Virus record (IMG/VR): IMGVR_UViG_3300035188_000217
Location: 1 to 23,503 of that record
DNA: 23,503 bases
Reading direction: 5' to 3' (one strand)
Origin: a virus
Both the position numbers and the translations under genes were made by a program. Shown here in pieces: positions 6,730 to 23,503 of the stretch. The notes below the pieces were generated by a model. It was not told the DNA's origin and searched no databases. It saw only the letters and a program-made list of their open reading frames with translations. The stretch's first letter is position 1; each line of letters starts with the position of its first letter.

Positions 6730-8202
6730 TTAGTCGAGATACCCCATGGTATCTCCATCTGCGTATTCGGTTCTTGTGAGGGAACCAGTCGCGCCGCCAA
6801 ACCTTCTCTGCAACATGCGGGACCGTATCACGGCATTGTTGGCCTTGAGATTATTTTCTTCTATTCTCTTTGTCAAGTCCATGATCTCTGTGTCTTTTGA
6901 GATCTCTTCCGGCGAAACAATGCCGCTGCGCATAAGGTCGGACACCCGCCGATTGAGATTGTCAGAAAGGTCATCAGCCGCAGACTTGTACATCCTCGCT
7001 GTTTCGATCTCTTGCTGAGCCTGCCATTTATAGCCCTCAATTTCACGCTCTGCGCTTGCTGCTTCATTAGCGCGAACACGATCAATCTCCGACTGCTCAT
7101 ACTCAAGAAGACCCTTTGCAATATCTCTTTGCGACTGCCTTTCGTCTTGACGGGCACCAAGCTCATACTTGAGGAGCGCTTGCTGCATTTCTCTATTGTT
7201 GGCACGTTCTTCGGCGCGCTCTTGGGCGTAACCACCGCCAAGAGCAGAAAGAGCATTGATTGCCGCCTGCATATTGCTTTGTCCCGGCTTAATCGCAGCC
7301 TGTGCAGCGTCAAACCATTTCTGCGCCTTCTCCCAACTTGAAATTTCGCCGCCGTAAAGCTCCTTTAATTTTTCCTCAACGTATTCTCTGTCTTCTGCGT
7401 TTACGCCAAAAATTGACTCAAGTCGCTTTTTCCGTTCCTCAATAGAGATCGCGGCTTTGTTCTCAAAAGAAGAGTCTCTCTTGCCGATGTTTGGGTCTGG
7501 GGGAATAGAGGCATTGGCAGATCGCTTCGCCGCTCTCTCTCCGGGCATTGATGAATCAAAAATCATTCTTACTGCCGCCTGATATCCGGGGTAAGAATCC
7601 ATATCAAGATACTTTTGCTCGCGCATCCTTTCAGCTTCATAACCGGCAACCTCTTCAGGGCTGGCGGTTAGCACAGGAATTGGCGGAAGCGATGGATTCG
7701 CGTAAGGCTGTACATTCTGCTCCAATACGCTAGGCGGCAAACCAAAAGAGGACTCTGGTTTTTGACCAGATAAGTCCGGATTGTTCTCCAGCATCCTTGC
7801 GGCGTCTTCAACGGTCATGCCATATTGATTGGCAATTTCCTGAACGCGGCTGCCATTTGGAACGACCAACCCAAGAGACTGGTATCTCTGTACAAAACCA
7901 CCACGCCGCATGCCCTGCTGGAGAGCGTCAATGCCAGCCCGCATCTGAGGCGGCGGCATCTGGGGCGGCGTCTGCATCGGGGCCTCAATATTCTGCGGCA
8001 CACTCGCAAGCTGCTTAGTTAGTGTATCGACAACCGACTCCTGCGGACCACCGGAGAACTGCTCACGAATGGACTGACGGCGCTGAGCCTCTGCCGCAAC
8101 AAGGAACGGCGGGATGTCACCCGTCGGGTTCTGCATGAGCATCGAGAGCCTAGCGTCTGGAAGGCCCTTGAGGAGATCCTGCTGTTCAATGATGTTGGGC
8201 AT
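6730..8202 (-). CDS. Putative internal virion protein with long coiled coil
   Basis: This 490-residue protein has an N-terminal motif, GLPDARLSMLMQNPTGDIPPF followed by LVAAEAQRR, that I recognise from many marine and freshwater podovirus structural genes. A Pro/Gln/Met-rich linker (70-90) leads to an RRGGFV motif (99-104). A short helical segment, YGMTVEDAARMLENNPDLSG (127-146), follows. The C-terminal half (about 245-470) is rich in Glu, Arg, Ala and Gln and is almost certainly a long coiled coil. It sits between the 410-residue and 1932-residue genes, in the position of the T7 gp14-gp16 ejection-protein module, so a role in the ejected core is likely but inferred. ATG follows the upstream TAA after only three bases, without a clear Shine-Dalgarno sequence, which suggests coupling. 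Confidence 0.7.
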   Translation of the reverse strand: MPNIIEQQDLLKGLPDARLSMLMQNPTGDIPPFLVAAEAQRRQSIREQFSGGPQESVVDTLTKQLASVPQNIEAPMQTPPQMPPPQMRAGIDALQQGMRRGGFVQRYQSLGLVVPNGSRVQEIANQYGMTVEDAARMLENNPDLSGQKPESSFGLPPSVLEQNVQPYANPSLPPIPVLTASPEEVAGYEAERMREQKYLDMDSYPGYQAAVRMIFDSSMPGERAAKRSANASIPPDPNIGKRDSSFENKAAISIEERKKRLESIFGVNAEDREYVEEKLKELYGGEISSWEKAQKWFDAAQAAIKPGQSNMQAAINALSALGGGYAQERAEERANNREMQQALLKYELGARQDERQSQRDIAKGLLEYEQSEIDRVRANEAASAEREIEGYKWQAQQEIETARMYKSAADDLSDNLNRRVSDLMRSGIVSPEEISKDTEIMDLTKRIEENNLKANNAVIRSRMLQRRFGGATGSLTRTEYADGDTMGYLD

Positions 8203-8205
8203 TTT

Positions 8206-9438
8206 TTAGCGCTCGTACTGATCGTAGTATTCGGGTTCAAGATCGGCGAGGCCACCACCGCGATATACGACGCCACCCTTGCGGAAGCCACCAAAGCCCT
8301 GAAGAATTCCACCAACGGCGGATCCGAGGCCGATGGCATTTTGGAGCCAAGATGGCTTATCATTGCCCATTGATTTCACGGGCTGATAGCCGCCTGACAT
8401 GCCGCCCAAGACGCCAGCCTGCATCTGCGAAACCTGAAGCGGATAATACCGCTGCGCCAAGTTGTACTGCTCTTGTAAATTTCCTCCAGCCTGAAGGGCC
8501 GCGAGGTTCGCAAGCTGCATGTTCTTCTTCTGCTCCGCAAGGAGCGCCTGCTCACGGGCAGAAGATGCGCGACCCTGAAGGGCGGCAAGCTCCGCTTCCT
8601 TTGCGGCGGCAATCTGACCAGCCTCGGCTTGACGTGCGCCCATAAGGCCCTGAAGCCCTTGAAACTGAGCCTGAGATGCAAACTGCCTTGAGGCTTCGCC
8701 AGCCTGACGGGCAGCCATAGCGCCCTGAAGCCCCTGAAGACCAAGGTTGGCACCAAACTGACGTGACTGTTCCTCGGCCTGCTGTGCCGCCATGTTGTCG
8801 GCGAACTCCTTGCCGTAGAGACCAACGGCAGATTCGTATGCGTTCTGGAGGCTCTGAGCGTTTACATCCGCCATCTGCTCCTGCATATTGCGGCGGGCTA
8901 CCTCTTGGGCAACTGCCGCACCAGATCCACCAAAGGAACCCGCACGAGCAGCTTCAAGGGCGCGGCTTGATGCCGCCTCATCGTACTGCTTCTGAAGGCG
9001 GTCTGTTGCCCGCTTTGCGACAAGCTCCTCATAGGGAGACATGCGCTGCTTGATGTTTTTGGTGGTGTAGTCGGCTTCTGCGAAATCCGTAGGGCCGTAT
9101 CTGCCCTGCCTGCGATACGCATCCTGTAGGTTGGCGTAGCTGGTCGGATCATACTCACCGGCCCGCTCGTACTTTCTGCCGATGTCGGAAAAATTCGTCA
9201 TGTCGTACTGGCCAGCCTGACCATACTGGCGATACATATCGCCCATGCGACGAAGTGCTTCGCGCTGCTCGGCATCGCCATACTGGCCTAGCCCCGGGAG
9301 GCCACGCAAGTACGCCATCGTGTATTTAGACAAGCCCGGATAGCCAGCCTCAATGGCCGCGCTTCCGCCACTTTGAGCCTGATCTAGTACGTCTTGTACG
9401 TAGTTGGCTACCGATTTACCTGTTTCTGTCTTTGCCAT
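8206..9438 (-). CDS. Putative internal virion protein, Ala/Gln/Gly-rich with repeats
   Basis: The protein has 410 residues. The N-terminal part holds about three copies of a Tyr/Gly unit of 18-20 residues (about 67-124), for example YERAGEYDPTSYANLQ. Residues 135-225 look helical, and residues 225-274 are two adjacent copies of a 25-residue Gln/Ala unit beginning SRQF. Residues 275-330 are strongly helical. The C-terminal region has a hydrophobic glycine stretch (GSAVGGILQGFGG) followed by FRKGGVVYRGGG (about 385-396) and a short acidic tail. The composition and position match the small ejection or core proteins of podoviruses, but there is no enzymatic motif. The gene is joined to its neighbours by short TAA-AAA-ATG junctions on both sides. 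The function is inferred from context only. Confidence 0.65.
   Translation of the reverse strand: MAKTETGKSVANYVQDVLDQAQSGGSAAIEAGYPGLSKYTMAYLRGLPGLGQYGDAEQREALRRMGDMYRQYGQAGQYDMTNFSDIGRKYERAGEYDPTSYANLQDAYRRQGRYGPTDFAEADYTTKNIKQRMSPYEELVAKRATDRLQKQYDEAASSRALEAARAGSFGGSGAAVAQEVARRNMQEQMADVNAQSLQNAYESAVGLYGKEFADNMAAQQAEEQSRQFGANLGLQGLQGAMAARQAGEASRQFASQAQFQGLQGLMGARQAEAGQIAAAKEAELAALQGRASSAREQALLAEQKKNMQLANLAALQAGGNLQEQYNLAQRYYPLQVSQMQAGVLGGMSGGYQPVKSMGNDKPSWLQNAIGLGSAVGGILQGFGGFRKGGVVYRGGGLADLEPEYYDQYER
8617..8766 (-). repeat. Two tandem 25-codon units in the 410-residue protein
   Basis: Residues 225-249 and 250-274 align without gaps: both begin SRQF, share QGLQG followed by an Ala/Met-rich stretch, and contain ARQA. 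This is a simple internal duplication in a helical region. Confidence 0.7.
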
Positions 9439-9441
9439 TTT

Positions 9442-10137
9442 TTACGCCGGAAGAAATTCGCTGGGGTTGATGGGTTCAGATCCCTTGATAAGCTCGGATC
9501 CTTCTTCTCTCAGACGCGCGACCATGGCGTCTAGGACTTTTGCACCGGCCTCTGTCGAACCATCGCCAAGTGTGGCAACAGCCCACGCCGGAATAACATA
9601 CTCGCCGCTCGCAATCCGGACATCCTCTCGGCCATCAATTGAACCGGGGACCAAATCTGCGACCCCGCTTCCGGGGCCGGACACAACGCCTCCATCTGCG
9701 TAGGCGCGGATAAGCTCTGCTGTGGCATCCCTGCCGAACATGCGATCATAGCGATCAAGTGCCTGACGCGGATTAGGGTGCTGCCCACGAAGGGCCGAAA
9801 TGCCGCCAGCAACTACGCCACCCTTTTCGAGGGTCTGGTTAACAACCCCTCCACGCGCCATCGCCTGACCGGCCATTGGCTTGCTGTAGGACTGGAGCGG
9901 CATAATTTGCCTACCGGCACCCCCTGTGGTGGAATTTACGCTTGAGCTTTGCTGCTGCGGAGGCTGACCAGAGCCGCCAATGTTTCCAAGCTGCGGCGGT
10001 GGCGACCACTGTGATTGCTGGTTTGACTGAATGCCGCTAATACCCTGATTATAACCGAAAACGGGCTTATTCATAAGGTCCTGCGGATTGTTGTATTGGG
10101 CCTGCCCAAACGCTGGTGGAATTCCGTTGAAATACAT
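9442..10137 (-). CDS. Structural protein with phage 'SGEYVIP' C-terminal domain
   Basis: The first 90 of its 231 residues are low complexity (Asn, Gln, Pro, Ser) and probably disordered. Next come MARGGVV (93-99) and EKGGVVAGG (104-112), then a helical segment with DRYDRMFGRDATAELIRAYADGG (128-150). The C-terminal part, from GPGSGVADLVPG (154-165) through SGEYVIP (177-183) to GNGS-like GDGSTEAGAKVLDAM (191-205), is a module I recognise from many podovirus internal and tape-measure-like proteins. Its biochemical role is unknown. It lies between the small gp at 10139 and the 410-residue protein, so it probably belongs to the tail-core group. A one-base gap separates it from the upstream stop. 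Confidence 0.65.
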   Translation of the reverse strand: MYFNGIPPAFGQAQYNNPQDLMNKPVFGYNQGISGIQSNQQSQWSPPPQLGNIGGSGQPPQQQSSSVNSTTGGAGRQIMPLQSYSKPMAGQAMARGGVVNQTLEKGGVVAGGISALRGQHPNPRQALDRYDRMFGRDATAELIRAYADGGVVSGPGSGVADLVPGSIDGREDVRIASGEYVIPAWAVATLGDGSTEAGAKVLDAMVARLREEGSELIKGSEPINPSEFLPA

Positions 10138-10138
10138 A

Positions 10139-10399
10139 TTAGCTCACGATCTTCAAGATGCCGCCGTCTGACCAAACACTGCCAGACGGAAGGCCGGTTG
10201 AGGTTGTGGGTATGTTCTGGATTGTCAGGCCAGAAATGGGAAATGCCGCGACCTGATTTGTAAGGTCGGAAGCAACAGTTATCGGCCTGATTGCGTCGAG
10301 CTTCTGGAGGCTAATCTCAATCTGTTTGATAAGCCTGTTCATGTACTCTTGGCTGTAGTCCTTGGTGGCCAGCGGAAGAGCAGATTTTGTGCCCGTCAT
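10139..10399 (-). CDS. Small conserved phage structural-region protein
   Basis: The protein has 86 residues: an N-terminal helix (about 15-40, NRLIKQIEISLQKLDAIRP), then beta-prone sequence ending LPSGSVWSDGGILKIV. That ending recurs in small podovirus proteins, but I know of no assigned function. The start is supported by GGGAGGA nine bases upstream. The ATG overlaps the stop of the upstream hub-like gene (ATGA), so the two are translationally coupled and may assemble together. Confidence 0.6.
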   Translation of the reverse strand: MTGTKSALPLATKDYSQEYMNRLIKQIEISLQKLDAIRPITVASDLTNQVAAFPISGLTIQNIPTTSTGLPSGSVWSDGGILKIVS

Positions 10400-12591
10400 C
10401 GACGACCATCCTCCCTCATGTCAAGGCGCGGCACCCCAAGACGCCAAGCGACATTGAGTTCATCGCTCTCTACCCGGAGAGCAACGGACCTTGCCCTGAT
10501 GCGAGTAAACATCTGATCGGTAAACCTGTTAACGGCAAGGGTTGCCGAGGAACTCCTCTGGGCGTTTCGTTCATCACCAGCGCCAATTGCGGAACCCGGA
10601 TAGTCCTGCGGCCTGATCGTGAATTTGACAATCGGCTCCACGTCGCCGTCATGCACTGTAGAGTTCTTGAACGTGAGGTCCGGTATAATGCGGTTCACGA
10701 ACATGAATTTCTGGCCCTCCCCGATCTCTACAGGGCTGGACTGGATGTATGCGTTGATCGGCGTTTCGGGGTTGGTGCTGCCATCGTTGAAGCCGGACTC
10801 TTGGGCGTACAGGTATCCGTCCACGCTTACGGCGCGGGGGGTAGTTCTGCCCGTCCGATCAATCCAAGCTGTGCGAGCAAGGCTTCCGTAATACCAAGCG
10901 TTTTCCGCGTAGTTGTAAACGACATAACGGTCAACCTCCACATCAGCCGGGGCAACCCCGTCCTCTGTGGACTGCGTCTTTGACGGGTAAAACCAGATGA
11001 TCTCGTTGTTGCCGGAGTCGGCAGAACAGTAGACCTTGTCGCCGTTGTCGGTGTCCAGATCCAAGAACACGTAATCCCTGACCGTGCAGGGTAGCGGTTC
11101 AATGCGTCCATTGTAGGAGTAGAAGTTGTTTGACCCCATCCAGAAGGCGGCTGAGCCAGCGACGATCTTTGCGTTCGGACCTATGATGTCAAAGGAAGAC
11201 CCGACATAGTTGAAGCCGTATCCATAAGGAGGACCGATGTAGGTCATCGTGTAAAGCGATGTGTCGGTCCAGATCAGGATTTCCTCTCTGTTCTGGACGG
11301 CTGTGACAATATACGACCCCGAAGAAAGCCTGTTGTCGCCAGCAGTTGTTGTGAGGTCTGCGGCATCCCAATTCGTTGGATCGGACGAATCAGACCAGCG
11401 AATTGTCATCTTGTCCTGCGGCTGCGTAACGTCGTATGGATTGCAACCAAAAGCGATGATCTGCCTGTTCTGGTCGGAGACCAAAATCTCAGTTGCGACA
11501 TACGGCAAATACTTCTTGGAGTATACGGACCCAAGGTTGCTAAAGCTGACGGCGGGGCCGTCGGTGTCGGTGATGTCCCAATAGACGATGGATGATGTGT
11601 AAACTTCGCATCCTGTGCCGCCAGACTCCGTCGTTGTGGCGTTGCTCGTTACGGTAAACGTGTACGCATTCGCGTTGACAACGGAAATTGTATGCGTTCC
11701 GTTCAGGGCGGAAACAGAGACGCCGCCGATGTCCACAGAAACATTACCGATGATTACTGCATTTCCATTCGAGAAGCCGTGGTTCAACTGCGTGACGGTC
11801 ACGACGTTGCTGCCGTTTGTCAGGTCAAGCGGATTTGATCCAAGGGTGTAATAGTTGGTGAGATCGCGCGGACAGGCGACCATGTCCTCGCCATAGTTGT
11901 CCACCGTCCATAGGCCGCTGTAGTACGTTGAGAGGGTGCTGTCTGGGCCATATCCCCAGCCATAGGATCCAGATACACCACCCCACGGACCACTGCCCCA
12001 GCCTGCAAACGTAACATTGGTGGATATGCCGGGATGGAACTGATATTCTACCGATACGCTTGAACCGCCACCAGAACCAGTTGATGTTGCGGTGCCTGTC
12101 GTGGTAACGGTATAGGCGTTCGCGTTCACGACGTTCTGGACGATTAGCTCCGTATTGATGGCGGTGCTAAGTATACCGTTTACATTCGACGAGCCAGACA
12201 CGGTTATATAGTCACCGGCAATCGCCCCGTGAGCAACGTCTGTGATTGTCACGTTGCTTGAACCGTTTACCGTCGCTATCGGATTTGAGCCAAGGTTTGA
12301 TGTTCGCCGAAGGGGCGTGATGTCAACTATGGTCGAGGAATCATCAACGTAAAATTTGATGTTGGTCGGCATGGCAAGATAGTTGGTGCCGACAAGGCTA
12401 GACCACCCATACAGCTTGCGGCACTTGCCGATCAGCGCTGTCTGGTTGGCATATATCTTCGTCCAGCCGCCAATTTTCTCCGGGAGGCCGTTCCTGAAGC
12501 GTATGAAATCCGAGTCAAACCACCCGCCGCTATTGGCATAGCTCGTCGTGTCACGGTTGATGCCGGGCTGGAATTTGAGCTTGGAGAGCAT
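10396..12591 (-). CDS. Tail hub/nozzle or stabilization-like protein with two FCCH-like inserts
   Basis: The N-terminal region of this 731-residue protein (LKFQPGINRDTTSYANSGGW, then DFIRFRNGLPEKIGGW) is typical of large podovirus proteins annotated as packaged-DNA stabilization or tail-nozzle proteins (P22 gp10 or T7 gp12 role). Residues 101-175 and 251-327 are two copies of a beta module (GSNP-xxxxNGSxxVT, then HGxxxGxxxxxxG, then NANAYT). This module resembles the phage repeat often labelled 'ubiquitin-activating enzyme E1 FCCH domain'. Between them lies a Trp/Gly-rich stretch (GWGSGPWGG). The remainder (about 330-731) is probably a beta-propeller-like body with W and DP turns. The role fits the neighbouring adaptor genes and is inferred. 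The start is ATG with a modest AGGG upstream. Confidence 0.7.
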   Translation of the reverse strand: MLSKLKFQPGINRDTTSYANSGGWFDSDFIRFRNGLPEKIGGWTKIYANQTALIGKCRKLYGWSSLVGTNYLAMPTNIKFYVDDSSTIVDITPLRRTSNLGSNPIATVNGSSNVTITDVAHGAIAGDYITVSGSSNVNGILSTAINTELIVQNVVNANAYTVTTTGTATSTGSGGGSSVSVEYQFHPGISTNVTFAGWGSGPWGGVSGSYGWGYGPDSTLSTYYSGLWTVDNYGEDMVACPRDLTNYYTLGSNPLDLTNGSNVVTVTQLNHGFSNGNAVIIGNVSVDIGGVSVSALNGTHTISVVNANAYTFTVTSNATTTESGGTGCEVYTSSIVYWDITDTDGPAVSFSNLGSVYSKKYLPYVATEILVSDQNRQIIAFGCNPYDVTQPQDKMTIRWSDSSDPTNWDAADLTTTAGDNRLSSGSYIVTAVQNREEILIWTDTSLYTMTYIGPPYGYGFNYVGSSFDIIGPNAKIVAGSAAFWMGSNNFYSYNGRIEPLPCTVRDYVFLDLDTDNGDKVYCSADSGNNEIIWFYPSKTQSTEDGVAPADVEVDRYVVYNYAENAWYYGSLARTAWIDRTGRTTPRAVSVDGYLYAQESGFNDGSTNPETPINAYIQSSPVEIGEGQKFMFVNRIIPDLTFKNSTVHDGDVEPIVKFTIRPQDYPGSAIGAGDERNAQRSSSATLAVNRFTDQMFTRIRARSVALRVESDELNVAWRLGVPRLDMREDGRR
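11611..12291 (-). repeat. Two FCCH-like beta repeats within the hub-like gene
   Basis: Codons 101-175 and 251-327 encode two related modules separated by a 75-residue Gly/Trp-rich spacer. Both begin with GSNP and an NGS turn, continue to an 'HG' motif, and end in 'VVNANAYT' plus a Thr/Ser-rich strand and a GG turn. Confidence 0.75.
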
Positions 12592-13170: not shown

Positions 13171-15612
13171 TTAGGTTATGGAGCCGCTGATAACAGCGAA
13201 TGAGAATGTTGGCGTTTCCGTTGTCGTTCCGCCAGTAGTCCGGAAGGACAGCCTAAAGGATCCGGCAGAAACCGCCGTTACGTGGATTTCGTATAAGTCT
13301 GTTCCAGTCCTTTGGTTAACGACGATTAAGTCGCTTGTTCCAACGGTTGAGTTGGTCACGGTGAATGATGCAAAAGTCGGCGATCCAGCCGCGCTGACGA
13401 GCGTAATCCTTCCAACGGGGTTATTTATTGTAACGCCGGTTGTCCTGCTGGTGGCCTGTGTGACGCTGGAACCAGAGCCAGCGCCATAGCCAAGGAGGCT
13501 TGTTCCAATGACCAAGCAGTCGCCGCTGCTGTCGATCTTGAATCTTTCAGTTACGCTTCCAGCGCCATCGCTTGTGGTCGAGAATATTATAGCGCCCGGA
13601 ACATCACCAGAAGAAACGGCTCCGTCAACACTGAAGTTAATTCTTGCCGATCCCCGCCAAATCGCACCATCGTAGATGTTTCCGCGAATCGAAAGGATGT
13701 CATCGCCGCTTGCGGCTGCGGTAATCGTGGTGGTGTCGCCGCCACGGGCTTTGTACCCCTCGTAGAATACACCACCTGTGCCAGTAGACTGGTTTCCGAG
13801 GCCAACTGCGGTCGCAGAGCCAGTCGCGTTCCACCCAATATACTGCGAGCCCGTCGCCCCGACGGCGGCATTGGCAACAGTCTTTGTGTTGGCGTTCTGG
13901 ACGTTATATATGGCATTCGCGGTGGATTGAATTCCTCCGGTAAACGTCTTGAGGCCCGCGAAAGTCTGGGCCGCAGTAAGCATTGCAACCGTGTCGCCTT
14001 CAACCGCGATAACACCGGCAGACACGCGAGAGATAGTCGTGTCGGATACGTTACCAACCTCAAAGGTGGTCGCCTGTGCCGCTCCGCCTACATCCAAAAG
14101 ATTTCCGGGCGCTGATGTTCCTATGCCGACATTACCGCCTGATGTAATGCGCATGCGCTCAACAGCCTGTGTGCTGGCTGTATTGTCGGACGTTCCGAAC
14201 AGCATTGCTGTATCTGGGGTCGCGCTTTCGGCAACGGTTGCGATGTAAGCCTTAACGCCAGCGCCGGGAGTGCTTACATCAGATCCGTACCACTCAATAC
14301 CGCCAATCGGCTGATTTGTAAGCAATGTCGTGTCGGTATTAACGAAGCTAATCGTACTGTTTTTTGAAGGGGAAGAGTATATTGTCGTACTGGCAAGTGT
14401 AGTGGTGTTGTTGATTGTATATGTACCAACGCCACCAGTACCCGTGCCAAGGGCGGTTATGTATGTGTTGTAATCAAGGCCGGATGTCCCAAGGAACACT
14501 CGATCACCAACCGAAATGGAGCCAGAGGATACGGATGTGATCGTGAGCGTGGTTCCGCTTATTGAACCAACCATAATGCCAGTAACATTTGTGTTTCCGG
14601 TGATCTGGAGGACATAACCGGGGTCGGCGGCATCGCCGATATTTACATTGCCTTTTGAGTTAATCCGCATACGCTCCGTTGTTGTGGAAGAACCGTCGGC
14701 GGTTGTGCTAAAAACAATACGGGATGGCATATCTCCGAGGCCCGGAGTTCCATCTACCCAGCCAACAATTGAAGCGCCAACCACCAATTCGGTGCCGTCG
14801 TCCCCGTTGAAGGTTATGTCACCAAGTACGTCGTTGTTCTGTACAATCGTATTTGTACCGATTGCTCCTCTGGATTTTCCAAAGTTAATGGAAGGAGGGG
14901 TGTTCGCAGCAGCCCAGCAATTCACACTAAGTGAAGAATTTTGCGCGTTCGCACCGTGAATCTGAGCCTTTGGAGTTTGCTGGGTTCCGACAAAACTGTC
15001 GGTGGAAAGGGCGGTCGTATGCCCCACAATAACCGTTCCGTCTGCGGCAATCACCGTGGGTGTTGCGTCGGGGTTCGTGCTGTCCTCGACCAGAAGTGCA
15101 TTGCCGGTGCCAAGCTGGGTAATGCGCAAGGCGGCATCGGTGTTGTCTGTGACAGAGATAATCTGGTTTTCGGTAAACGTGTTCGTGGCATTTGTGGACG
15201 CCACATTGCCGACGATCTTATTGGCGTCAATGCCGTCTACATAAAGGAAGTACGTTTCGCCATTGGGGATGGTTACGCCGGTCTGGCCAGACACCTTGAA
15301 GGTCACGCTGAATCCGCCGGTCGTGGCGTTCTTCACCACGTATAGCTTTTCAATCGCGGGGCAGATCACATTGCGGGCGGCGGTAATGGTGCCGGTTAGA
15401 TTGATGACCGCATTACGGGATTGATCGGCAGAGCCGTTGTTGGTGGAAAGGGTTGTGTCGCCGCTGTTGGAAACCGTAACAGAGACGTAACCGCCAATCG
15501 CCTCCTCAAGGAGGGTGCCAAGGTTGGTGTTCGTGGTTGTACCCCACGTACCCTGCTGCTCGCCGGTTCCAATGAGTTCAAGACGGAGATTGGGAGAGTA
15601 TGTTGATGCCAT
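13171..15612 (-). CDS. Tail fibre protein
   Basis: The N-terminus of this 813-residue protein, MASTYSPNLRLELIGTGEQQ followed by GTWGTTTNTNLGTLLEEAI, is a well-known phage fibre start that anchors to the tail. The rest is Gly/Thr/Ser/Asn-rich beta sequence typical of trimeric fibres. Three related modules end in 'ERMRINSKGNVNIG', 'ERMRITSGGNVGIG' and 'ERFKIDSSGDCLVIG'; two of them are preceded by 'IVFSTTADG' or 'IIFSTTSDG'. Such modules are common in receptor-binding fibre shafts. No C-terminal peptidase chaperone or enzymatic depolymerase motif is visible. The C-terminus (SAGSFRLSFRTTGG onward) looks like a small beta tip. It presumably binds the host surface. The gene is followed by a small protein and preceded by the repeat protein, possibly another appendage. 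Confidence 0.85.
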   Translation of the reverse strand: MASTYSPNLRLELIGTGEQQGTWGTTTNTNLGTLLEEAIGGYVSVTVSNSGDTTLSTNNGSADQSRNAVINLTGTITAARNVICPAIEKLYVVKNATTGGFSVTFKVSGQTGVTIPNGETYFLYVDGIDANKIVGNVASTNATNTFTENQIISVTDNTDAALRITQLGTGNALLVEDSTNPDATPTVIAADGTVIVGHTTALSTDSFVGTQQTPKAQIHGANAQNSSLSVNCWAAANTPPSINFGKSRGAIGTNTIVQNNDVLGDITFNGDDGTELVVGASIVGWVDGTPGLGDMPSRIVFSTTADGSSTTTERMRINSKGNVNIGDAADPGYVLQITGNTNVTGIMVGSISGTTLTITSVSSGSISVGDRVFLGTSGLDYNTYITALGTGTGGVGTYTINNTTTLASTTIYSSPSKNSTISFVNTDTTLLTNQPIGGIEWYGSDVSTPGAGVKAYIATVAESATPDTAMLFGTSDNTASTQAVERMRITSGGNVGIGTSAPGNLLDVGGAAQATTFEVGNVSDTTISRVSAGVIAVEGDTVAMLTAAQTFAGLKTFTGGIQSTANAIYNVQNANTKTVANAAVGATGSQYIGWNATGSATAVGLGNQSTGTGGVFYEGYKARGGDTTTITAAASGDDILSIRGNIYDGAIWRGSARINFSVDGAVSSGDVPGAIIFSTTSDGAGSVTERFKIDSSGDCLVIGTSLLGYGAGSGSSVTQATSRTTGVTINNPVGRITLVSAAGSPTFASFTVTNSTVGTSDLIVVNQRTGTDLYEIHVTAVSAGSFRLSFRTTGGTTTETPTFSFAVISGSIT

Positions 15613-17026: not shown

Positions 17027-17310
17027 TAGAGCCTCCTGATGATTGCGGCCATGTCCTCATGGCCTTGCTTGCCTAGCTGTGCCGCCAGAGTTGTACGGTC
17101 TGACCTTACAGCCTGTTTCATGTAGTGGATGATCGCGGGACGGATACGGTCCTTGTACGCCATCGCCTGATCTCGTATTGCCGGGTGGGCCTCCGACGAA
17201 ATGAACAAGAGCTTGTTCAGAAGGTCTTCGGCAATCTCTTCAACGGTAAAACCCCGCTCGTGCGTGGTCCGTACCTCAAATGCTCCTACGGAGCCAAATC
17301 CATTGTTCAT
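17026..17310 (-). CDS. Small conserved phage protein (helical)
   Basis: The 94-residue, predominantly helical protein carries FTVEEIAEDLLNKLLFISSE, AHPAIRDQAMAYKDRIRPAI, YMKQAVRSDRTT and a C-terminal GHEDMAAIIRRL. The same run of motifs (HPAIRDQA, AVRSDRTT, IRRL end) is familiar from phages and prophages of Alphaproteobacteria, without a known function. It is tightly coupled to both neighbours: the stop of the adaptor-like gene overlaps its ATG by one base (TGATG), and its TAG shares a base with the next GTG. Confidence 0.65.
   Translation of the reverse strand: MNNGFGSVGAFEVRTTHERGFTVEEIAEDLLNKLLFISSEAHPAIRDQAMAYKDRIRPAIIHYMKQAVRSDRTTLAAQLGKQGHEDMAAIIRRL
17032..17037 (-). promoter_or_regulatory. 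Strong Shine-Dalgarno site AGGAGG fixing a GTG start
   Basis: AGGAGG on the minus strand lies five bases before the GTG at 17024-17026 and inside the end of the 94-residue gene. It is the best ribosome binding site in the window and suggests high expression of the 142-residue protein. Confidence 0.75.
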
Positions 17311-17954
17311 CAGTTCGGCGTGATGCGGGGTTCAGAATTTCTGTACGTGTCGGAACGGTTACGGCCTTCGCCAATGACCTTGAGCGCCTGTAGCGACTCC
17401 TTGTACTTCCCGGCGTAAAGGCCAATGAGATCCTGCTCGCCCTTGAGGTACGTGTACGCCTCAAATAGGCAGCCGTACAGTAGAGCATTTTCGGCGTTTT
17501 CGCTGATCCAAGTGCCTGCTGGCTGATCAACGATGGACGCCGGTTCGTAGAAGTAGTGAAGCTCGACTTCGTAAGATGAATCCGGTGGAGGACCGATCAG
17601 GAAGGTGTCGTTGTCGAAGATCGCGTAGTAGCGGGGAACCCCGGTCGTCGATGTAGAGGGATACGCCTCACGGAGAAACGCAACCTCCTTCGGGAGCAAA
17701 TACTCGTATGTGCCGTTGTTGTTCACGGCAATGGAGTATGTCGCCAGATAGTCCGTCGGGGTCGTGAGATAGCGATTGTTCGCCGTCAGGTTGCCCGTCA
17801 CGTTCTTCTTGAGGACCGGGATCTGCACGTCATAGTAGATGCGCTGCTCGGCCTGCCGAATGATCGTGTCCATATCGGTAGTCGAGATACCATTCGAGTC
17901 TACCTGAAGGTAGCCGTGGATCGCATCTACAAGCTGTGCATACGTGAAGGCCAT
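17310..17954 (-). CDS. Adaptor-fold / tail tubular protein A-like protein
   Basis: The architecture of this 214-residue protein matches podovirus adaptor or tail tubular proteins. Helices come first (YAQLVDAIHGYLQ, then DTIIRQAEQRIYYDVQIP). A beta insertion follows (GNLTANNRYLTTPTDYLATY to TFLIGPPPDSSYEVELHYFY). Two C-terminal helices close the protein (ENALLYGCLFEAYTYLKGEQ and LYAGKYKESLQALKVIGEG), with a disordered tail. In virions this fold forms the dodecameric ring between portal and nozzle. A second, different protein of the same architecture is encoded at 20728-21429, so this one is more likely the tail tubular ring. A one-base gap follows the 55-residue gene stop. Confidence 0.75.
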   Translation of the reverse strand: MAFTYAQLVDAIHGYLQVDSNGISTTDMDTIIRQAEQRIYYDVQIPVLKKNVTGNLTANNRYLTTPTDYLATYSIAVNNNGTYEYLLPKEVAFLREAYPSTSTTGVPRYYAIFDNDTFLIGPPPDSSYEVELHYFYEPASIVDQPAGTWISENAENALLYGCLFEAYTYLKGEQDLIGLYAGKYKESLQALKVIGEGRNRSDTYRNSEPRITPN

Positions 17955-17955
17955 A

Positions 17956-18123
17956 TCAGCCCTGCTTCTCCGAGATCCTCAGACCCTTCGTCGCGGCACC
18001 ACCGCCGCGCATCTTCATGGGCTTCTTCAGGATCTTCATGTTCCCGACGTTTACACCGCGCCGCATGCCGCCTTCAACGGTGGCATCCGACGGGTCCTTG
18101 AGCCGTGCGTTCTGCTTCTGCAT
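17956..18123 (-). CDS. 55-residue basic Gly-rich protein
   Basis: I place the start at the internal ATG (MQKQNARLKDPSDATVEGGM) because it lies one base after the stop of the upstream gene, the junction type used throughout this cluster. A longer frame reaching 18216 would overlap the 92-residue gene. The protein is basic and has RRGVNVGNMKILKKPMKMRG + GGAATKGLRISEK in its second half, including the recurrent 'MRGGGAATKG' motif. It has no transmembrane segment and no known domain. It is one of five consecutive Gly/Arg/Lys-rich small proteins, and the function is unknown. Confidence 0.6.
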   Translation of the reverse strand: MQKQNARLKDPSDATVEGGMRRGVNVGNMKILKKPMKMRGGGAATKGLRISEKQG

Positions 18124-18124: not shown

Positions 18125-18403
18125 TTAGCGACCCCGCTGGATTTTGGTCTTCTGAAGCCGACCGACACCGCTACCGGCACCAGCCCGCATGTCACGATGA
18201 GAGCGAGCGGGAGCATTCACAATGCCGCCAGCAGCCATCTTCTTTTTGCTCTTCTTGATGATGGTGACAGAGCTACCGCCCGTTACGTCACCGGCATAAG
18301 GATCGGCCATCTCCTCGATAAGGCGACGGAGACTTTTGCGCTCCTTGGCGGTGTAGCCGACCTTGCCGCCTTCCGCCATCTTCTTCCTGTACGTGTACTT
18401 CAT
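18125..18403 (-). CDS. 92-residue basic protein with AEGG/AAGG motifs
   Basis: The start ATG has AGAGGA immediately upstream. The sequence has MAEGGKVGYTAKERKSLRRL (9-28), an acidic patch (EEMADPYAGD, 30-39), KKSKKKMAAGGIVNAPARSH (50-69) and a C-terminal GSGVGRLQKTKIQRGR. It is rich in Lys, Arg and Gly, and the two 'MAxGGxV' motifs match those of neighbouring proteins. I recognise no family. DNA binding or a minor virion role is conceivable but unproven. Nine bases separate it from the 114-residue gene, and one base separates it from the 55-residue gene. Confidence 0.6.
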   Translation of the reverse strand: MKYTYRKKMAEGGKVGYTAKERKSLRRLIEEMADPYAGDVTGGSSVTIIKKSKKKMAAGGIVNAPARSHRDMRAGAGSGVGRLQKTKIQRGR

Positions 18404-18412
18404 TTCTTCCTC

Positions 18413-18757
18413 TTACTTGATTTTTCCGCGAGTGAGCCCACGCTGAGCGGAACCACAACCACGAACCATTCCGCCGGAACGCATGTCCTTTGACAACCTG
18501 CTGCCAACCTTCGGCTTGTAGGCTTCCGAATCAGAGCGCTTTTCGGGCCCCTTGTCGCTCAAAGGGAGGTTGATGTCCTTGATCGGCTTCGCTGTCGGCT
18601 TGTCTTCCTTGTCTCCGGAGGACATGCTGTCCGGCCACGCAAAAAAGTGACCATGAAACATGACTCCGGGTGTCCCATCTCTGTGAACACCAAAGGCCAG
18701 CGGACCAAGGCCGACAAACTTACCCGGCTCTGTTGGGGCCTTGATCGGCTTTGACAT
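18413..18757 (-). CDS. 114-residue basic-tailed protein, paralogue of the next gene upstream
   Basis: The ATG at 18757 is preferred because it follows the upstream TGA after one base; a longer frame would run into that gene. Residues 12-40 (GKFVGLGPLAFGVHRDGTPG, then VMFHGHFF) look like a small beta module. Residues 41-60 are acidic and disordered. Residues 57-65 are KPIKDINLP, and the C-terminus is KVGSRLSKDMRSGGMVRGCG followed by SAQRGLTRGKIK. All four elements recur in the same order in the 133-residue protein encoded next door. The function is unknown. The shared layout and basic tail suggest a duplicated virion-associated or regulatory protein. Confidence 0.65.
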   Translation of the reverse strand: MSKPIKAPTEPGKFVGLGPLAFGVHRDGTPGVMFHGHFFAWPDSMSSGDKEDKPTAKPIKDINLPLSDKGPEKRSDSEAYKPKVGSRLSKDMRSGGMVRGCGSAQRGLTRGKIK

Positions 18758-18758
18758 A

Positions 18759-19160
18759 TCAGACCATCCTTCCGCGCCCGCGCCCGCGCTCAGCCTTACC
18801 GGCACCACGGACAAGGCCACCAGCCTTCATTCCAGAAGCTTTCAATCTGCTGCCAACCTTTATCGGAAGGTCAATATCCTTGATCGGCTTGCCTGAAGGC
18901 TTTTCCTCATCATCCGATGAATCCCCGGGGGAGTACGGGGATTCGTAGTAATTCTGGCTTGTCGGCACAAACTTGTTGCCAATCAGGACACCTGTCTGGC
19001 CCTCCCTATTTGTACCGGCAACAGCAAGACCCGTGCCGCCGAGAAGATCAACAAACCTTCCGGGGCTACGGGTGCCCATGCCCAAGCCCTGACTAAGCGC
19101 ATAGATCATGTCTGCTGCGCCTGTCGCCGCCTCTTCTTTTGTGGGCTTGTCTTTTGCCAT
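18759..19160 (-). CDS. 133-residue basic-tailed protein, paralogue of the next gene downstream
   Basis: The start at 19160 (MAKDKPTKEEAATGAADMIY) lies one base after the upstream TAA. A longer frame to 19274 would overlap that gene. A helix (8-28) absent from the paralogue comes first, then GRFVDLLGGTGLAVAGTNRE and GQTGVLIGNKF (35-64), a Ser/Asp/Glu linker (72-90), KPIKDIDLPIKVGSRL (91-106) and the basic tail MKAGGLVRGAGKAERGRGRG + RMV. It shares the last four parts with the 114-residue protein and the extreme C-terminus with the 215-residue protein. No domain of known function is recognised. The last codons contain AAGGA nine bases before the next ATG. Confidence 0.65.
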   Translation of the reverse strand: MAKDKPTKEEAATGAADMIYALSQGLGMGTRSPGRFVDLLGGTGLAVAGTNREGQTGVLIGNKFVPTSQNYYESPYSPGDSSDDEEKPSGKPIKDIDLPIKVGSRLKASGMKAGGLVRGAGKAERGRGRGRMV

Positions 19161-19161
19161 G

Positions 19162-19809
19162 TTATACCATCTTTCCGCGACCAACGCCGCGCTTCGCGCA
19201 ACCACCGGCACGCTTCGCAAGTCCACCCTTGGCGAGGGCCATGCCGACACCCTTACGGGCGAGACCGCCACCACGCATATTCTTCTTGGCCTTCACAGCA
19301 CCGCCCTTGCGGAAACCGCGACCCATCGGAACTGAGTCGGCATCGGATGTCATTCCGCCGCCAGCCTGATAGCCTGTGGCACCACCAATAGAACCACCAC
19401 GGCCCATCGGCTGAGCGCCGGAAGCAATGCCCCGAGAGATAGCGGATGGCATTGCGCCACCACGACCCGGGAGACGCACTGGCTGAGCTTCCATGGATGC
19501 CATGGCACCACCACGACCCATGGGGACGGAACCAATATCAGATGTCATTCCGCCACCACGGATAGGGAGGCCCATAGCCCCACCGATGATGCCCTGAATG
19601 TCGGAGAACGAACCGCCACGGCCCGAGCGACCAATTGGACGATACATTCCCTCATTGCCACGCCCCGGCCTGCGCATATAGGCATCGCTTGAGGCAAGAG
19701 CCTGCATACCCGGCTTCAGATTTGACGCGCTACCGTAGCTGGTAATTCCGCCGTCCTGCATACGCTTGTGAGACTTACGGGCCTTGCCGCCATGCTTCAT
19801 CTTCTTCAT
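19162..19809 (-). CDS. 215-residue Gly/Arg/Met-rich low-complexity protein
   Basis: The sequence is dominated by Gly, Arg, Met, Ala and Ser. It begins MKKMKHGGKARKSHKRMQDG and carries about five 'PMGRGG' or 'LPGRGG' motifs. A 16-residue direct repeat (GGGMTSDIGSVPMGRG at 85-100, GGGMTSDADSVPMGRG at 150-165) differs at two positions. The C-terminus holds FRKGGAV, MRGGGLARKG, LAKGGLAKRAGGCAKRG and ends GRGKMV. It is strongly basic and probably disordered, with RGG-type sequence that in other proteins can bind nucleic acid. No enzymatic motif is present. The ATG has GGAGA eight bases upstream and overlaps the zinc-ribbon gene stop by one base. Confidence 0.6.
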   Translation of the reverse strand: MKKMKHGGKARKSHKRMQDGGITSYGSASNLKPGMQALASSDAYMRRPGRGNEGMYRPIGRSGRGGSFSDIQGIIGGAMGLPIRGGGMTSDIGSVPMGRGGAMASMEAQPVRLPGRGGAMPSAISRGIASGAQPMGRGGSIGGATGYQAGGGMTSDADSVPMGRGFRKGGAVKAKKNMRGGGLARKGVGMALAKGGLAKRAGGCAKRGVGRGKMV

Positions 19810-20165
19810 TATAGTTCTCCAGAGTAAGTGATGGGGCTCGGCACCCCGTTGAGATAAATGCCGATCACGCCAACCTGTCCGGTTCCGTAAACAGCGGGGT
19901 TTCCTACGGGGTTCCAGCCCCAGAGTTCGCGGCTGACAACCTGTGCAGTGTCAGGCCGGGGATTGTAGAGGGCTTGCGGATCGTTGATCGGCACACGCCC
20001 GACGAAATATTGAGGCTGATCCTTGTCGAGGCAATAGGGGCAGTTCTTGATGTTTGTGACGCGACCGGCGACGACTTGAGGCTTTAGCTCGTGGAGGTCA
20101 TACCTCTGGTTGCATGTATCACAAAAACCGAATGCAAGTTTTCCTTTGGCATACGGAACGCTCAT
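19809..20165 (-). CDS. Zinc-ribbon phage protein
   Basis: Two Cys pairs form a zinc ribbon in this 118-residue protein: C15-x-x-C18 (FGFCDTCNQRY) and C42-x-x-C45 (NCPYCLD). The rest includes DPQALYNPRPD and a Gly/Val-rich C-terminus with WGWNPVGNPA. I recognise the pattern MSVPYAKGK...FGFCDxC...ELK...DPQALxxPRPD from many podovirus late regions. The function is not established; a small structural or nucleic-acid-binding role is possible. The start codon overlaps the TGA of the homing endonuclease (ATGA), so its expression may depend on translation of that selfish gene. Confidence 0.75.
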   Translation of the reverse strand: MSVPYAKGKLAFGFCDTCNQRYDLHELKPQVVAGRVTNIKNCPYCLDKDQPQYFVGRVPINDPQALYNPRPDTAQVVSRELWGWNPVGNPAVYGTGQVGVIGIYLNGVPSPITYSGEL

Positions 20166-20728
20166 TCAGAAACCCTCCGTATCTGCCAGCCCTTTATGCC
20201 GCGAGATCTGCGCCTGACCTTCCTGTTCATGTGGTTAACGACATTTGGTAGGTCGAGACCAAGGGACTTGCAAGCTTCAGAGATCGTCGGGAAACGCAGG
20301 ACAATTCCGTCCTTTTCGCACTCGACAGCAGACCCTCCAAGCGACCTAGATTTCTTGATCTTGGTCGCAAGTGAATATTTCCGGCCAACATTCCACTGAT
20401 TGCCAATTTTGGCAGCGGCCATCCTTGCCCGGGCTTCGGGGGACCGAACTGCACCCTTGGTGCCGTCGCCTCCCTCAGTTAAGTTTACAATGCCAACGCC
20501 CATTTTACGAAGCCTTTTTATCAGGCCCCGCTCAAGGTCGAAGGCGATATCCTCCGTCGAACACTCCATCTTTCCCACGAGGATCTTGTCCTCGCCGTAC
20601 TTGTTCAGGATGTTCATGTGATGGCGGTTGTGGTAACGCTTCTTGAACGACACCCGCGTTTCGTCGCCCTTGCCAACATAGAAAGGCGTTCCGTCGGGTT
20701 TACAGTGGATGTAGGCATAGAACGACAT
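20162..20728 (-). CDS. GIY-YIG homing endonuclease with NUMOD3 and NUMOD1-like modules
   Basis: This 188-residue free-standing homing endonuclease would cut endonuclease-free alleles and spread its own gene. The GIY-YIG domain (about 1-90) has Y6 in YAYI, Y17-V-G in FYVGKG, an Arg at R25 (or R31), E66 in LERGLIKRL and N82 in IVNLTEGGDG: all the expected active-site positions. NUMOD3 follows (SPEARARMAAAKIGNQW, 96-112). The C-terminal region (about 134-186, with FPTISEACKSLGL and GIKGWQI) resembles the NUMOD1/IENR DNA-binding repeat. The gene looks intact. It lies exactly between the adaptor gene (1-base overlap) and the zinc-ribbon gene (4-base overlap). No intron is evident, as both neighbours read as complete genes. 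Confidence 0.92.
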   Translation of the reverse strand: MSFYAYIHCKPDGTPFYVGKGDETRVSFKKRYHNRHHMNILNKYGEDKILVGKMECSTEDIAFDLERGLIKRLRKMGVGIVNLTEGGDGTKGAVRSPEARARMAAAKIGNQWNVGRKYSLATKIKKSRSLGGSAVECEKDGIVLRFPTISEACKSLGLDLPNVVNHMNRKVRRRSRGIKGWQIRRVSE

Positions 20729-21429
20729 CAGAAATCATATCCAACAAACGGGATGAACCTGTCGCTGGAGCGATCCCGGTCCTCGTCGGCGGCAAGCTGG
20801 AACGCCTCGTCGTAGAGATCCTTCAGCATGGAAACCCTATCGGCGGCTTCCGGCTTTTTCAAGGCAATGTGATATGCCAGCCCGGCAACGAGGGCATTGT
20901 AGAACCGGAATGGGATCTCAATCGTCTGGCTTACGGGGTTCGTCGCGTCGTCCATACGCTTCAGATACCAGTACGCGAGCGTGTAAACGGTGCTAGAGTC
21001 CGGAACCGGCCAGAGCGTAATCTGTGGCGAGTTTGTCGCCCTGTTTACATAGATCTGGTAGGGACGCCCAGTCTGGTCCTTGGTCGGGATGTTTGCGTAT
21101 GTGGACACCGAGATCCTGTTCAGGGAAATGTCGGTGTTGATTCCGGCGCTGCTCGTCCGGCACACATGCTCAATGTAGTCAATCGCGTCAGCCGGGAGCC
21201 CGTCGGCAGACGTGTAGGTCTTCTGACCGGCCACAAGAGTAATGGTGCCGGAACGAACAGTCCAGAGGTTAAGGCCCTTGTTGGCCCACTCCGCTAGGAG
21301 GAAGTTCATGCTGCGCCGAGCAGTCTTCAGGTCATAGCCAGAACGCAGTTCAAGGCCAGCCCTCTCGTAGGCTTCCTCGACCAATTCCCCGATGTCGGGG
21401 TTCCAAGTTGTCGTTCCGCTTGTTGTCAT
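20728..21429 (-). CDS. Head-tail adaptor, P22 gp4-like
   Basis: The chosen start gives 233 residues (MTTSGTTTWNPDIGELVEEA). It is an ATG with AGGA six bases upstream; a TTG 30 bases further upstream is less likely. Helices at about 10-50 (ELVEEAYERAGLELRSGYDL, then ARRSMNFLLAEWANKGLNLW) match the N-terminal helical hairpin of podovirus adaptors. A beta insertion follows (GTITLVAGQKTYTSADG through PQITLWPVPDSSTVYTLAYW). The C-terminal helices are IPFRFYNALVAGLAYHIALK and RVSMLKDLYDEAFQLAADED, ending with a tail that probably contacts the portal. The protein would form the ring beneath the portal vertex. Its stop shares one base with the homing endonuclease ATG. Confidence 0.8.
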   Translation of the reverse strand: MTTSGTTTWNPDIGELVEEAYERAGLELRSGYDLKTARRSMNFLLAEWANKGLNLWTVRSGTITLVAGQKTYTSADGLPADAIDYIEHVCRTSSAGINTDISLNRISVSTYANIPTKDQTGRPYQIYVNRATNSPQITLWPVPDSSTVYTLAYWYLKRMDDATNPVSQTIEIPFRFYNALVAGLAYHIALKKPEAADRVSMLKDLYDEAFQLAADEDRDRSSDRFIPFVGYDF

Positions 21430-21516: not shown

Positions 21517-21660
21517 TTAATATTTGCCTCTGTCGCCCCTGTTGGGGTCCTTCGGGCCAAGCTTTTTGGAACCCCGCCTATGGACCGGCTTGCTGCGCCC
21601 CCGGCTCTTTTTGGTGAAGAGGGGGAGGCTATTCCCAATTGCGTCTTTCTTTTTTGCCAT
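21517..21660 (-). CDS. 47-residue very basic small protein
   Basis: The start ATG has GAGGA six bases upstream and lies one base after the stop of the preceding gene. The protein begins MAKKKDAIGNSLPLFTKKSR and ends in PKDPNRGDRGKY. About one third of its residues are Lys or Arg, with no hydrophobic core, so it is probably disordered and could bind nucleic acid. Good ribosome binding site, good spacing and sense-strand continuity with the late unit support it as real, although it is short and I recognise no family. Its position just before the adaptor suggests a head or packaging accessory role, which is inference. Confidence 0.55.
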   Translation of the reverse strand: MAKKKDAIGNSLPLFTKKSRGRSKPVHRRGSKKLGPKDPNRGDRGKY

Positions 21661-21661
21661 C

Positions 21662-23503
21662 TCAGGTCCTCGCGGACGGCTCGCGTCCAGCTAGATATTC
21701 CTGATAGTCATTATAGTCCGGGTCCCCCGGAGATGGAATTCCGACGCCAAGGTCCCAGAGGTAATACTGGTACGGCCTCCCGGTTGACTCTTCCGGTGCC
21801 GGTGTCGCGCCCGACGGATAAGATGGGCTTGTGGGGTTGTATGCTGTTTCGTAGCTCTGTTTGCCGCCAAGCTCACGAATTGGAGCTCCACCCTGATACG
21901 CAGATCCACCATACCCCGGGATTGGCATACCCTTCGGGATTACCCCTGAAGCAATTCTCTGGTTTTGCCAGTCTTGCATGTTCTCGTCAGTTACGTCAAC
22001 GCCAGCCTGCCGCGCAAAAGGCACAAGCTGCGGGTTGTCGGAAATAATCTGCTGCCTCTCCTCATCAGTTCTTGCTTGCATAAGGGAGCGTCTGGCAGAG
22101 GATGCCGGATCGGTTATTGTTTCACTGAAATCTCTGCCCGTGAAGTAGTCAAGACCTTTTTCGACACCGGAAAGAGCCAGCGAACCAAGACCTCCCGTAA
22201 AGGCTCCGACGACCCCCTTTGCCAAGCCAATACCACCGCCAACGACTTTGTCGTTTATTTTGTCGTAGCGGCGCATGACCTCTTGGATTTTTTGATCAAC
22301 ATAAATTGGGCCATACGGGACGGCGGGCTTTACCTGATTTACGATATCTTCCTCTTGGGACGGTATAGCGATTGATCCCGCTGGGGCCGCCGGAGCCTCC
22401 GGCGGCACATCCTCCACCATAATTTCAGTGCCAAGATACTTTTCACGGTAGCCCGGCGGCAGCGAATCGCTTGCATATTTTGCAAACGGATTTGTTCTAT
22501 CCCCGATTGCGGTTGGCCCAATCGGGCTGTCGTACTTACCAGCAACAAACCCAATCTTTCCGAAGTCTGGGCTTCCGTATGCTATATTCCTAAGTTCGAG
22601 ATTAGTGAACGGGCTAATCTTTTGTGATTGTGCCGACCCCGTGGTCGCAGGCATACCAAGACCTCCGATAACGCTCATGCTGATGTCGTTCTTGACATCC
22701 GGAGATTTGTTTGCAATTTCAAGAGAAGGAATACCACCAAGGCCAGCAACGCCGCCAGACGGAGTTTCCGGCGAAAAGTAGTTGCCAATTGCCTTGTAAG
22801 CATCCCCGATGGCCTGCTTGAGCGGTTCAATCCTGCTGAACCCGAGGGCGCTTATCCCGCCGGGCTCTGACATCCACATATTGCTCGGCTGCGTGTATGG
22901 GGAGAGATCAGGATCAGTAGGACGGCGTGAAGTAGGTGAAGATATGCGAGGCCCAAAAGACCCCTGCGGCGCGTCTGGATAATATGTTTTGATGGGGGAT
23001 ATCGGGCCAAAAGTCCCGGAAGGCGCATCAGGATATGAAGTCGGCAATTTTAAATCTGTACTGGATCCAAATCCGGGATACGACCCAAGCGGAGATATAC
23101 GGGACGGACCAACATTGCCAAATGCTTCTGTTCCGCTAGAAGGACCAACGGGCGAAAGAAGGCTGCTACGACGAGTATCAAGTGAACCAAAGCCGCCGCC
23201 CGCACCGGGGCTCGTCGGTGTAACCGGACGATAAGAATAGCTGGCAACCTCGGAAAGAGCGTCATGTATCTGACCGCCGCCAATCGCAACAGGCGTTTGC
23301 ATCGGGCCAACATTGATAGAAGAAATGCCTCCCCTTCTGGAGTCATCCATGAGTGCCGAGCTAAGCGAAGCTTCTTTGGCGTTGTTAACCTCTGCCGCGT
23401 TCTGTGCGGCTGTATCGGGAGACTGCTGCTGAGACGGAGATGGCGATTCGGGTGATGCAGCCGTATCTCTGGACGACTGATATGCACCCGTGGATGACCC
23501 AGA
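21662..23503 (-). CDS. Large Pro/Ser/Gly-rich virion-region protein, 5' end cut by window
   Basis: The frame is open to the right edge with no stop, so the true start lies outside; 613 residues are visible. The internal ATG at 23350 is unlikely to be the start, because 51 further codons upstream (SGSSTGAYQSSRDTAASPES onward) have the same composition. The first two-thirds are low complexity (Gly, Pro, Ser) with short repeats such as YPDAPSGTFGP and YPDAPQGSFGP. Around 22160-22250 it encodes a Gly/Ala/Val hydrophobic stretch (GGIGLAKGVVGAFTGGLGSL), then a charged helical part (SSARRSLMQARTDEERQQII). The C-terminus ends YYLWDLGVGIPSPGDPDYND + YQEYLAGREPSART. No family is recognised. Its position ahead of the adaptor suggests a minor head or ejected protein. 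Confidence 0.6.
   Translation of the reverse strand, partial: SGSSTGAYQSSRDTAASPESPSPSQQQSPDTAAQNAAEVNNAKEASLSSALMDDSRRGGISSINVGPMQTPVAIGGGQIHDALSEVASYSYRPVTPTSPGAGGGFGSLDTRRSSLLSPVGPSSGTEAFGNVGPSRISPLGSYPGFGSSTDLKLPTSYPDAPSGTFGPISPIKTYYPDAPQGSFGPRISSPTSRRPTDPDLSPYTQPSNMWMSEPGGISALGFSRIEPLKQAIGDAYKAIGNYFSPETPSGGVAGLGGIPSLEIANKSPDVKNDISMSVIGGLGMPATTGSAQSQKISPFTNLELRNIAYGSPDFGKIGFVAGKYDSPIGPTAIGDRTNPFAKYASDSLPPGYREKYLGTEIMVEDVPPEAPAAPAGSIAIPSQEEDIVNQVKPAVPYGPIYVDQKIQEVMRRYDKINDKVVGGGIGLAKGVVGAFTGGLGSLALSGVEKGLDYFTGRDFSETITDPASSARRSLMQARTDEERQQIISDNPQLVPFARQAGVDVTDENMQDWQNQRIASGVIPKGMPIPGYGGSAYQGGAPIRELGGKQSYETAYNPTSPSYPSGATPAPEESTGRPYQYYLWDLGVGIPSPGDPDYNDYQEYLAGREPSART

Follow-up and report, generated by a model that had tools for sequence, protein, structure and literature searches.

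The virus fragment IMGVR_UViG_3300035188_000217 from IMG/VR (23.5 kb; hereafter the window, meaning the whole stretch of DNA analysed) encodes three proteins, of 114, 133, and 215 residues, which end in a fixed cassette. This cassette is a member of a family of C-terminal tags for which no description was found, carried by around 100 unrelated protein bodies in a large family of environmental short-tailed phages. The real unit is a bipartite C-terminal cassette, together with a related internal Phi-x-x-GG-Phi-V motif. By analogy with characterized phage proteins, the tag may serve for docking when the virion is assembled, a reading to which a probability of about 45% is given.

A scan of IMG/VR for MKxGGxVRG returned a cassette of fixed length on differing proteins, with 23 residues between the Met and the stop codon in the largest group; overall, tags are 14–28 residues long. 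The main form has the consensus [MFY]-K-x-GG-x-V-SASxRA-DGCAxRGKT-[KR]-G-[KR]-M-V-stop, in which GG, D, G, A, G, and T were invariant in a sample of 18. The form found in the window is shorter, GG-x-V-RG-x-G-x-A-x-RG-x-x-RG-K-M-V, and is encoded on the minus strand in each case. In the 133-residue protein (gene 18759–19160) the tag, MKAGGLVRGAGKAERGRGRGRMV followed by the stop (18762..18830), was found by profile match and contains MKAGGLVRG. The 114-residue protein (gene 18413–18757) ends in MRSGGMVRGCGSAQRGLTRGKIK (18416..18484), which contains MRSGGMVRG and was matched in a six-frame profile search with an E value of 2e-5. For the 215-residue protein (gene 19162–19809), homologues and a profile family support the cassette MRGGGLARKGVGMALAKGGLAKRAGGCAKRGVGRGKMV (19165..19278); the GG sites of the whole protein are MQDGGITS, FRKGGAV, MRGGGLARKG, and LAKGGLAKR. 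A related variant of the tag, MRGGGAATKGLRISEKQG, closes the 55-residue protein (gene 17956–18123; 17959..18012, minus strand), which contains MRGGGAATKG. All 14 homologues aligned with it had MRGGGAAT unchanged, and other phages carry a similar ending, MKDGGVVRGTARGGGAATKG.

When IMG/VR was scanned with the core of the main form, DGCAxRGKT, at least 139 matches in open reading frames (ORFs) were obtained from at least 120 stretches. Among the matches listed, 139 of 139 lay no more than 31 residues from the stop codon, 87 of them at exactly 14 residues and 30 at exactly 11, and 17 contigs held two or three tags. For a control, the core DNA pattern was run against 257 Gb of bacterial and archaeal genomes, which gave 47 matches, close to a chance estimate of about 30; 3 of the 47 were C-terminal tags. 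The tag is a feature of viruses. On one contig binned as a Patulibacter genome, a membrane-acyltransferase-like reading frame ends in the tag (L335:165–1841; ADGCAQRGKTKGRMI); either a chimaera or a fusion of viral origin could account for it. Tag peptides had no match in Pfam or PHROGs and no credible match in the PDB, and the tagged proteins scanned matched no NCBIfam model. The literature search, whose coverage lay outside most subscription journals, returned no description of the tag either; the initial annotation had named no described function for its GG motif. Searches of isolate phages by tblastn with short tag peptides gave no informative matches, short Gly-rich queries being insensitive. 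A Walker A reading of GCAQRGKT was rejected, as the window tags do not have GKT and the tag terminates disordered proteins.

Tagged genes are found beside adaptor genes. In 211 tagged loci, the first adaptor lay within 4 kb in 130, the second adaptor in 101, and the major capsid protein in 45, and 524 of 529 genes adjacent to tagged genes were on the same strand. Pfam searches of the neighbours identified SU10-type adaptors, an SU10-type portal, and a capsid protein; homologues of SU10_adaptor and SU10_portal adjoin tagged genes, with an E value of 1.4e-12 for the portal in one tagged contig (L154). Loci were also selected by the adaptor alone and not by the tag. Eighty of at least 595 such loci were fetched, and those extending 2.5 kb or more upstream, 45 in number, were scored; a tag was nearby in 42 of these, with a mean of 1.8 and a range of 0 to 5 tagged genes per locus. 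At 12 bits, the tag profiles gave 104 C-terminal sense matches, 101 of which were no more than 3 kb from the adaptor, whereas antisense and shuffled ORFs each gave zero; as the profiles were built from the same phage group, these counts measure prevalence and specificity and are not an independent discovery.

Following removal of the tag, 207 bodies fell into 102 clusters, 68 of which were singletons. The bodies are mostly disordered or of low complexity and rich in lysine and arginine, with a net charge of +0.05 per residue. In the 133-residue family, 15 of 18 invariant columns fall within the last 22 residues, and in a comparison of the window with one relative (G011), in which the adaptors and a 118-residue gene are 90–93% identical, alignment of the three tagged proteins is confined to the final 27–47 residues. 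At invariant tag residues the codons vary synonymously, indicating selection at the peptide level. The cassettes of the 114-, 133-, and 215-residue proteins can be aligned with one another and with those of relatives, so the cassette looks homologous, and the bodies are not. The initial annotation had favoured a common short signal over common ancestry; this holds for the bodies, which share the signal, but not for the cassettes, which are alignable. Recent copying of the tag within a genome was rejected, since tags sharing a contig are barely more similar than tags from separate contigs (amino acid identity 0.877 against 0.855, DNA identity 0.764 against 0.707). A structure model of the 133-residue protein was of low confidence, with the tag predicted to be unstructured, and that of the 410-residue protein was likewise of low confidence.

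The initial annotation had described a looser motif, basic-x-GG-hydrophobic, in at least 10 proteins of one transcription unit. All of the listed peptides are present in the sequence, but in nine proteins. The genes at 6730–23503 are on the minus strand throughout and closely spaced, which makes a single transcription unit plausible. In late proteins of the window the loose motif occurred 18 times, compared with 7.0 when composition alone was kept (0 of 1000 shuffles reached 18), whereas the excess was slight over shuffles in which GG was kept (11.9; 41 of 1000 reached 18). Given the GG pairs, the motif was no more frequent in late than in early genes of two near-complete relatives (36 of 264 against 5 of 42, Fisher 0.49), and for this reason the loose motif was rejected as a functional unit. 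By the criterion that the initial annotation had set, it is only weakly supported, and it mostly follows from the glycine richness of late proteins. The inferred common signal on otherwise unrelated proteins of the virion gene block does hold, and more strongly than could be seen from the window, but as written it was too loose.

A sharper motif, [MFYL]-x-x-GG-[hydrophobic/K]-[VATIR], was then considered. It occurred 17 times in late proteins of the window (1.7 in composition shuffles, 3.2 in GG-kept shuffles) and 17 times in the late genes of each of the two relatives (4.6 and 5.0 in GG-kept shuffles), about 3–5 times the GG-kept frequency. As this definition was post hoc on the window sites and the proteins of the relatives are homologous, it is the collection-wide scans that provide independent evidence. 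Early genes of the same two relatives had no significant excess (2 against 1.0 and 0 against 0.8). In homologues of the 92-, 231-, 410-, and 490-residue proteins, the sharper motif forms a conserved spot within otherwise variable regions. All of these sites lie on the minus strand. The 92-residue protein (gene 18125–18403) contains MAEGGKV (18359..18379), with the motif in 13 of 13 cluster members, and MAAGGIV (18218..18238). Three copies, MARGGVV (9841..9861), LEKGGVV (9811..9831), and YADGGVV (9682..9702), are present in the 231-residue protein (gene 9442–10137); the last has the motif in 20 of 20 members and opens a tape-measure-like module, the C-terminal half (GGVVSGPGSGVADLVPGSIDGREDVRIASGEYVIPAWAV, 9442–9702) bearing a weak resemblance to a tail tape-measure module (best PHROG E value 0.021). 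The 410-residue protein (gene 8206–9438), also listed with the GG peptide FRKGGVVYRGGG, ends in FRKGGVVYRGGGLADLEPEYYDQYER (8209..8286), in which GG and GGGLAD are invariant in 13 homologues and the flanking linker varies in length. The 490-residue protein (gene 6730–8202) contains MRRGGFVQRY (7882..7911, motif at residues 98–106), of which the M, GG, V, and R did not vary among 11 homologues. SRRGGISS (23318..23341) of the 613-residue partial protein (21662–23503) is the weakest member and not clearly the same motif. An FRQGGF ending TerL is regarded as coincidence, as it sits inside the conserved C terminus of that protein. On resemblance, the internal motifs of the 92-, 231-, 410-, and 490-residue proteins may be the same signal as the C-terminal tag.

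Among isolates, a clear tag was found in the cyanophages MinM2, Pag-Yong1, and Pra-JY27, on a 308-residue protein that ends in RFI and whose gene lies between the capsid and adaptor genes, and a weak tag was found in two proteins of pelagiphage HTVC023P. Searches with the tag profile did not detect it in HTVC008M, Syn9, S-PM2, P-SSM2, P-SSP7, SU10, HTVC019P, HTVC010P, or HTVC027P, nor in CRP-901, DSL-LC04, MW202675, Octadecabacter virus DB2, or Vibrio phage 1.205.O.

For a functional interpretation, the closest match among known systems would be gp7.3 of phage T7. This protein is required for tail assembly and is ejected; a 15-residue C-terminal loop is anchored at the nozzle–adaptor junction, and the basic, disordered N terminus surrounds the DNA end (PMC11784390). 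Like gp7.3, the tagged proteins are small proteins of short-tailed phages with a basic, disordered body and a short conserved C-terminal segment, and as a working analogy they share bodies of free sequence, a fixed C-terminal peptide, and genes beside those of the head–tail rings. The gp7.3 gene adjoins the portal gene, whereas tagged genes adjoin the adaptor, and T7 has one such protein where here a whole set shares one tag. On this analogy, the cassette would bind, during morphogenesis, to a site repeated around one of the ring proteins of the head–tail junction (adaptor, portal, or nozzle), and the flexible basic body would occupy the channel or lie against the packaged DNA end, leaving with the DNA at infection, in a mode of action like that of gp7.3. 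In what is the weakest step of the proposal, the Phi-x-x-GG-Phi-V motifs of the 92-, 231-, 410-, and 490-residue proteins would bind the same or a similar site.

Several observations weigh against a docking tag of this kind. Tag profiles scored below zero on gp7.3, and with no sequence similarity the comparison is a working analogy and not one of family membership. The tag was not detectable in SU10, CRP-901, HTVC027P, or DSL-LC04 despite related modules, and so is not a general requirement of this tail type. That tags of one contig are hardly more alike than those of different contigs leaves no visible co-adaptation with a phage-specific partner. Finally, the last four tag codons double as the Shine–Dalgarno sequence of the next gene, an extra constraint that explains part of the ending.

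Other known systems share some of these features. The SU10 (Kuravirus) tail module has the adaptor (PF24175) and portal (PF23899) families that adjoin tagged genes; unlike SU10, which has no detectable tag, the tagged phages encode two adaptor paralogues. Encapsulin cargo loading peptides, conserved C-terminal peptides of about 10 residues, are by themselves enough for cargo to be taken up by an HK97-fold shell, with cargo and shell genes adjacent (PMC7355545). The likeness lies in the conserved C-terminal peptide, but encapsulins are cellular compartments, their peptide is shorter and of different sequence, and their cargo consists of folded enzymes. The internal proteins of T-even phages are "highly diverse", with one short signal on diverse small proteins of one phage (PMC3012670); in T4 this capsid targeting sequence comprises the N-terminal 10–20 residues and is removed by the prohead protease (PMC5694885). 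It resembles the tag as a conserved signal on hypervariable bodies, although the tags here were all C-terminal among the matches listed, with no sign of removal in an analysis that did not examine cleavage.

The T4 precedent leads to an alternative to docking at the head–tail junction, in which variable small proteins enter the head because their tag attaches to the scaffold or to the inside of the capsid, to be ejected later and to act in the host, for example against defences. Hypervariable bodies with a conserved tag, a number of tagged genes that varies from 0 to 5 per locus, and the frequent position of these genes between capsid and adaptor genes, as in MinM2, are all in keeping with it. 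The tagged genes hug the adaptor, however, and not scaffold or protease genes, the mostly low-complexity bodies gave no effector domain in the scans made, and the T4 signal stands at the other terminus and is cleaved. Capsid targeting is considered rather doubtful. The initial annotation had proposed a sorting tag or docking on a common partner, and these remain the favoured readings. That the tag has one or other role in virion docking or addressing is considered probable, the probability being divided between docking and capsid targeting.

Explanations that dispense with an address are harder to sustain. Contact of a Gly/Arg/Lys-rich tag with DNA or RNA, with no protein partner, would suit the basic tag and bodies and the many R-G pairs, but neighbouring gene products are nearly as basic (+0.043 per residue), hydrophobic positions are conserved, and the DGCA-x-RGKT order at a fixed distance from the stop is far more specific than charge-driven contact needs, making this improbable. 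Alternatively, the endings could be a by-product of translation, with the last codons supplying a Shine–Dalgarno sequence to the gene that follows, and with Gly-rich low-complexity sequence giving rise to the GG motifs. Of 91 tags, 59 used GGA or GGG at codon −4, while 11 and 7 did so at the two other Gly positions, codon −3 favoured AAG or AGG, most next genes began within 12 nucleotides, and the loose motif was not enriched in late genes given GG. Yet 12 of 19 tags with the next called gene more than 25 nucleotides away still ended in MV or MI, DGCAxRGKT and GGxVRGxGxAxRG are left unexplained as their codons vary freely, and antisense and shuffled ORFs gave zero matches. As an account of the whole tag this is very unlikely; it is refuted for the core, though it still accounts in part for the final four residues. 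Least probable of all is a double-glycine cleavage site used in assembly, which the initial annotation had tentatively linked to an HExxH protein. GG is invariant and the 1932-residue protein of the window does have HEAIH at residue 819, but the residues from GG to the C terminus are conserved as much as GG itself, as expected of a retained peptide, and the motif occurs near N termini, internally, and at C termini, with fourteen GG runs in one protein.

In the window as a whole, the minus strand carries every gene from 905 to the right end. The two SU10-family adaptors are adaptor 1 (20728..21429, PF24175 E value 2.6e-14), the gene beside which tags were found in other phages, and adaptor 2 (17310..17954, 6.5e-26). 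In some tagged contigs, adaptor homologues of about 310 residues have an inserted stretch matching fibre and baseplate families (L211:2398–3348 and L211:4757–5686). A GIY-YIG-like homing endonuclease gene (PHROG 314; 20162–20728) is inserted between adaptor 1 and the 118-residue gene; it is present in the relative G003 and had no match in G011. Also on the minus strand are a P22 gp10-like stabilisation protein (10396–12591, PHROG 3287), a tail fibre gene (13171–15612), and the 1932-residue protein, which has an LPD38 domain (within 905–8202; HEAIH at nucleotides 4235–4249). A tyrosine-recombinase-like gene on the plus strand (90–908) was assigned from sequence, with no profile. Between 18759 and 19809 the codons ending the tags serve as the Shine–Dalgarno sequence of the next gene (e.g. 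GGAAGGATGGTCTGATATG), and stop and next start are 1 nucleotide apart. Scans of the window with Rfam and for tRNAs gave no matches.

Relatives of the window comprised 26 IMG/VR loci, 2 of them on contigs near 60 kb, with more distant relatives among isolates such as DSL-LC04, HTVC023P, CRP-901, and MinM2. Against G003, the 1932-residue protein was 38% identical over 201 residues and much of the 490-residue protein 48%, while flanking genes were 99–100% identical; such divergence at 905–8202 amid near-identical flanks suggests recombination at this locus. The large terminase of G011 contains an intein (L035:15539–17929; Intein_splicing E value 9.6e-15), whereas its homologues in G021 and G007, of 499 residues, lack the extra length. 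In G021, a 59-kb contig (L037, L039), one gene is split across both ends, with MRGGGMTT at the right end and MFKRGGVVRRKKTRK at the left end, which suggests a circular or permuted complete genome.

For most environmental phage genes no function has been assigned, and classification is most difficult for short disordered proteins. Being virus-specific, simple to search for, and present next to the adaptor in nearly all loci sampled, the tag offers a handle on around 100 unrelated groups of such proteins. More tentatively, across a large group of environmental podoviruses one C-terminal tag could load interchangeable disordered proteins into the particle or the head–tail channel, the cargo being swapped and the label kept. 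If the tag is such an address, it can be used to locate virion cargo in metagenomes, it would reveal new virion or ejected proteins and what these phages carry into cells, and the recruitment of small proteins by the particles would be testable directly with the peptide.

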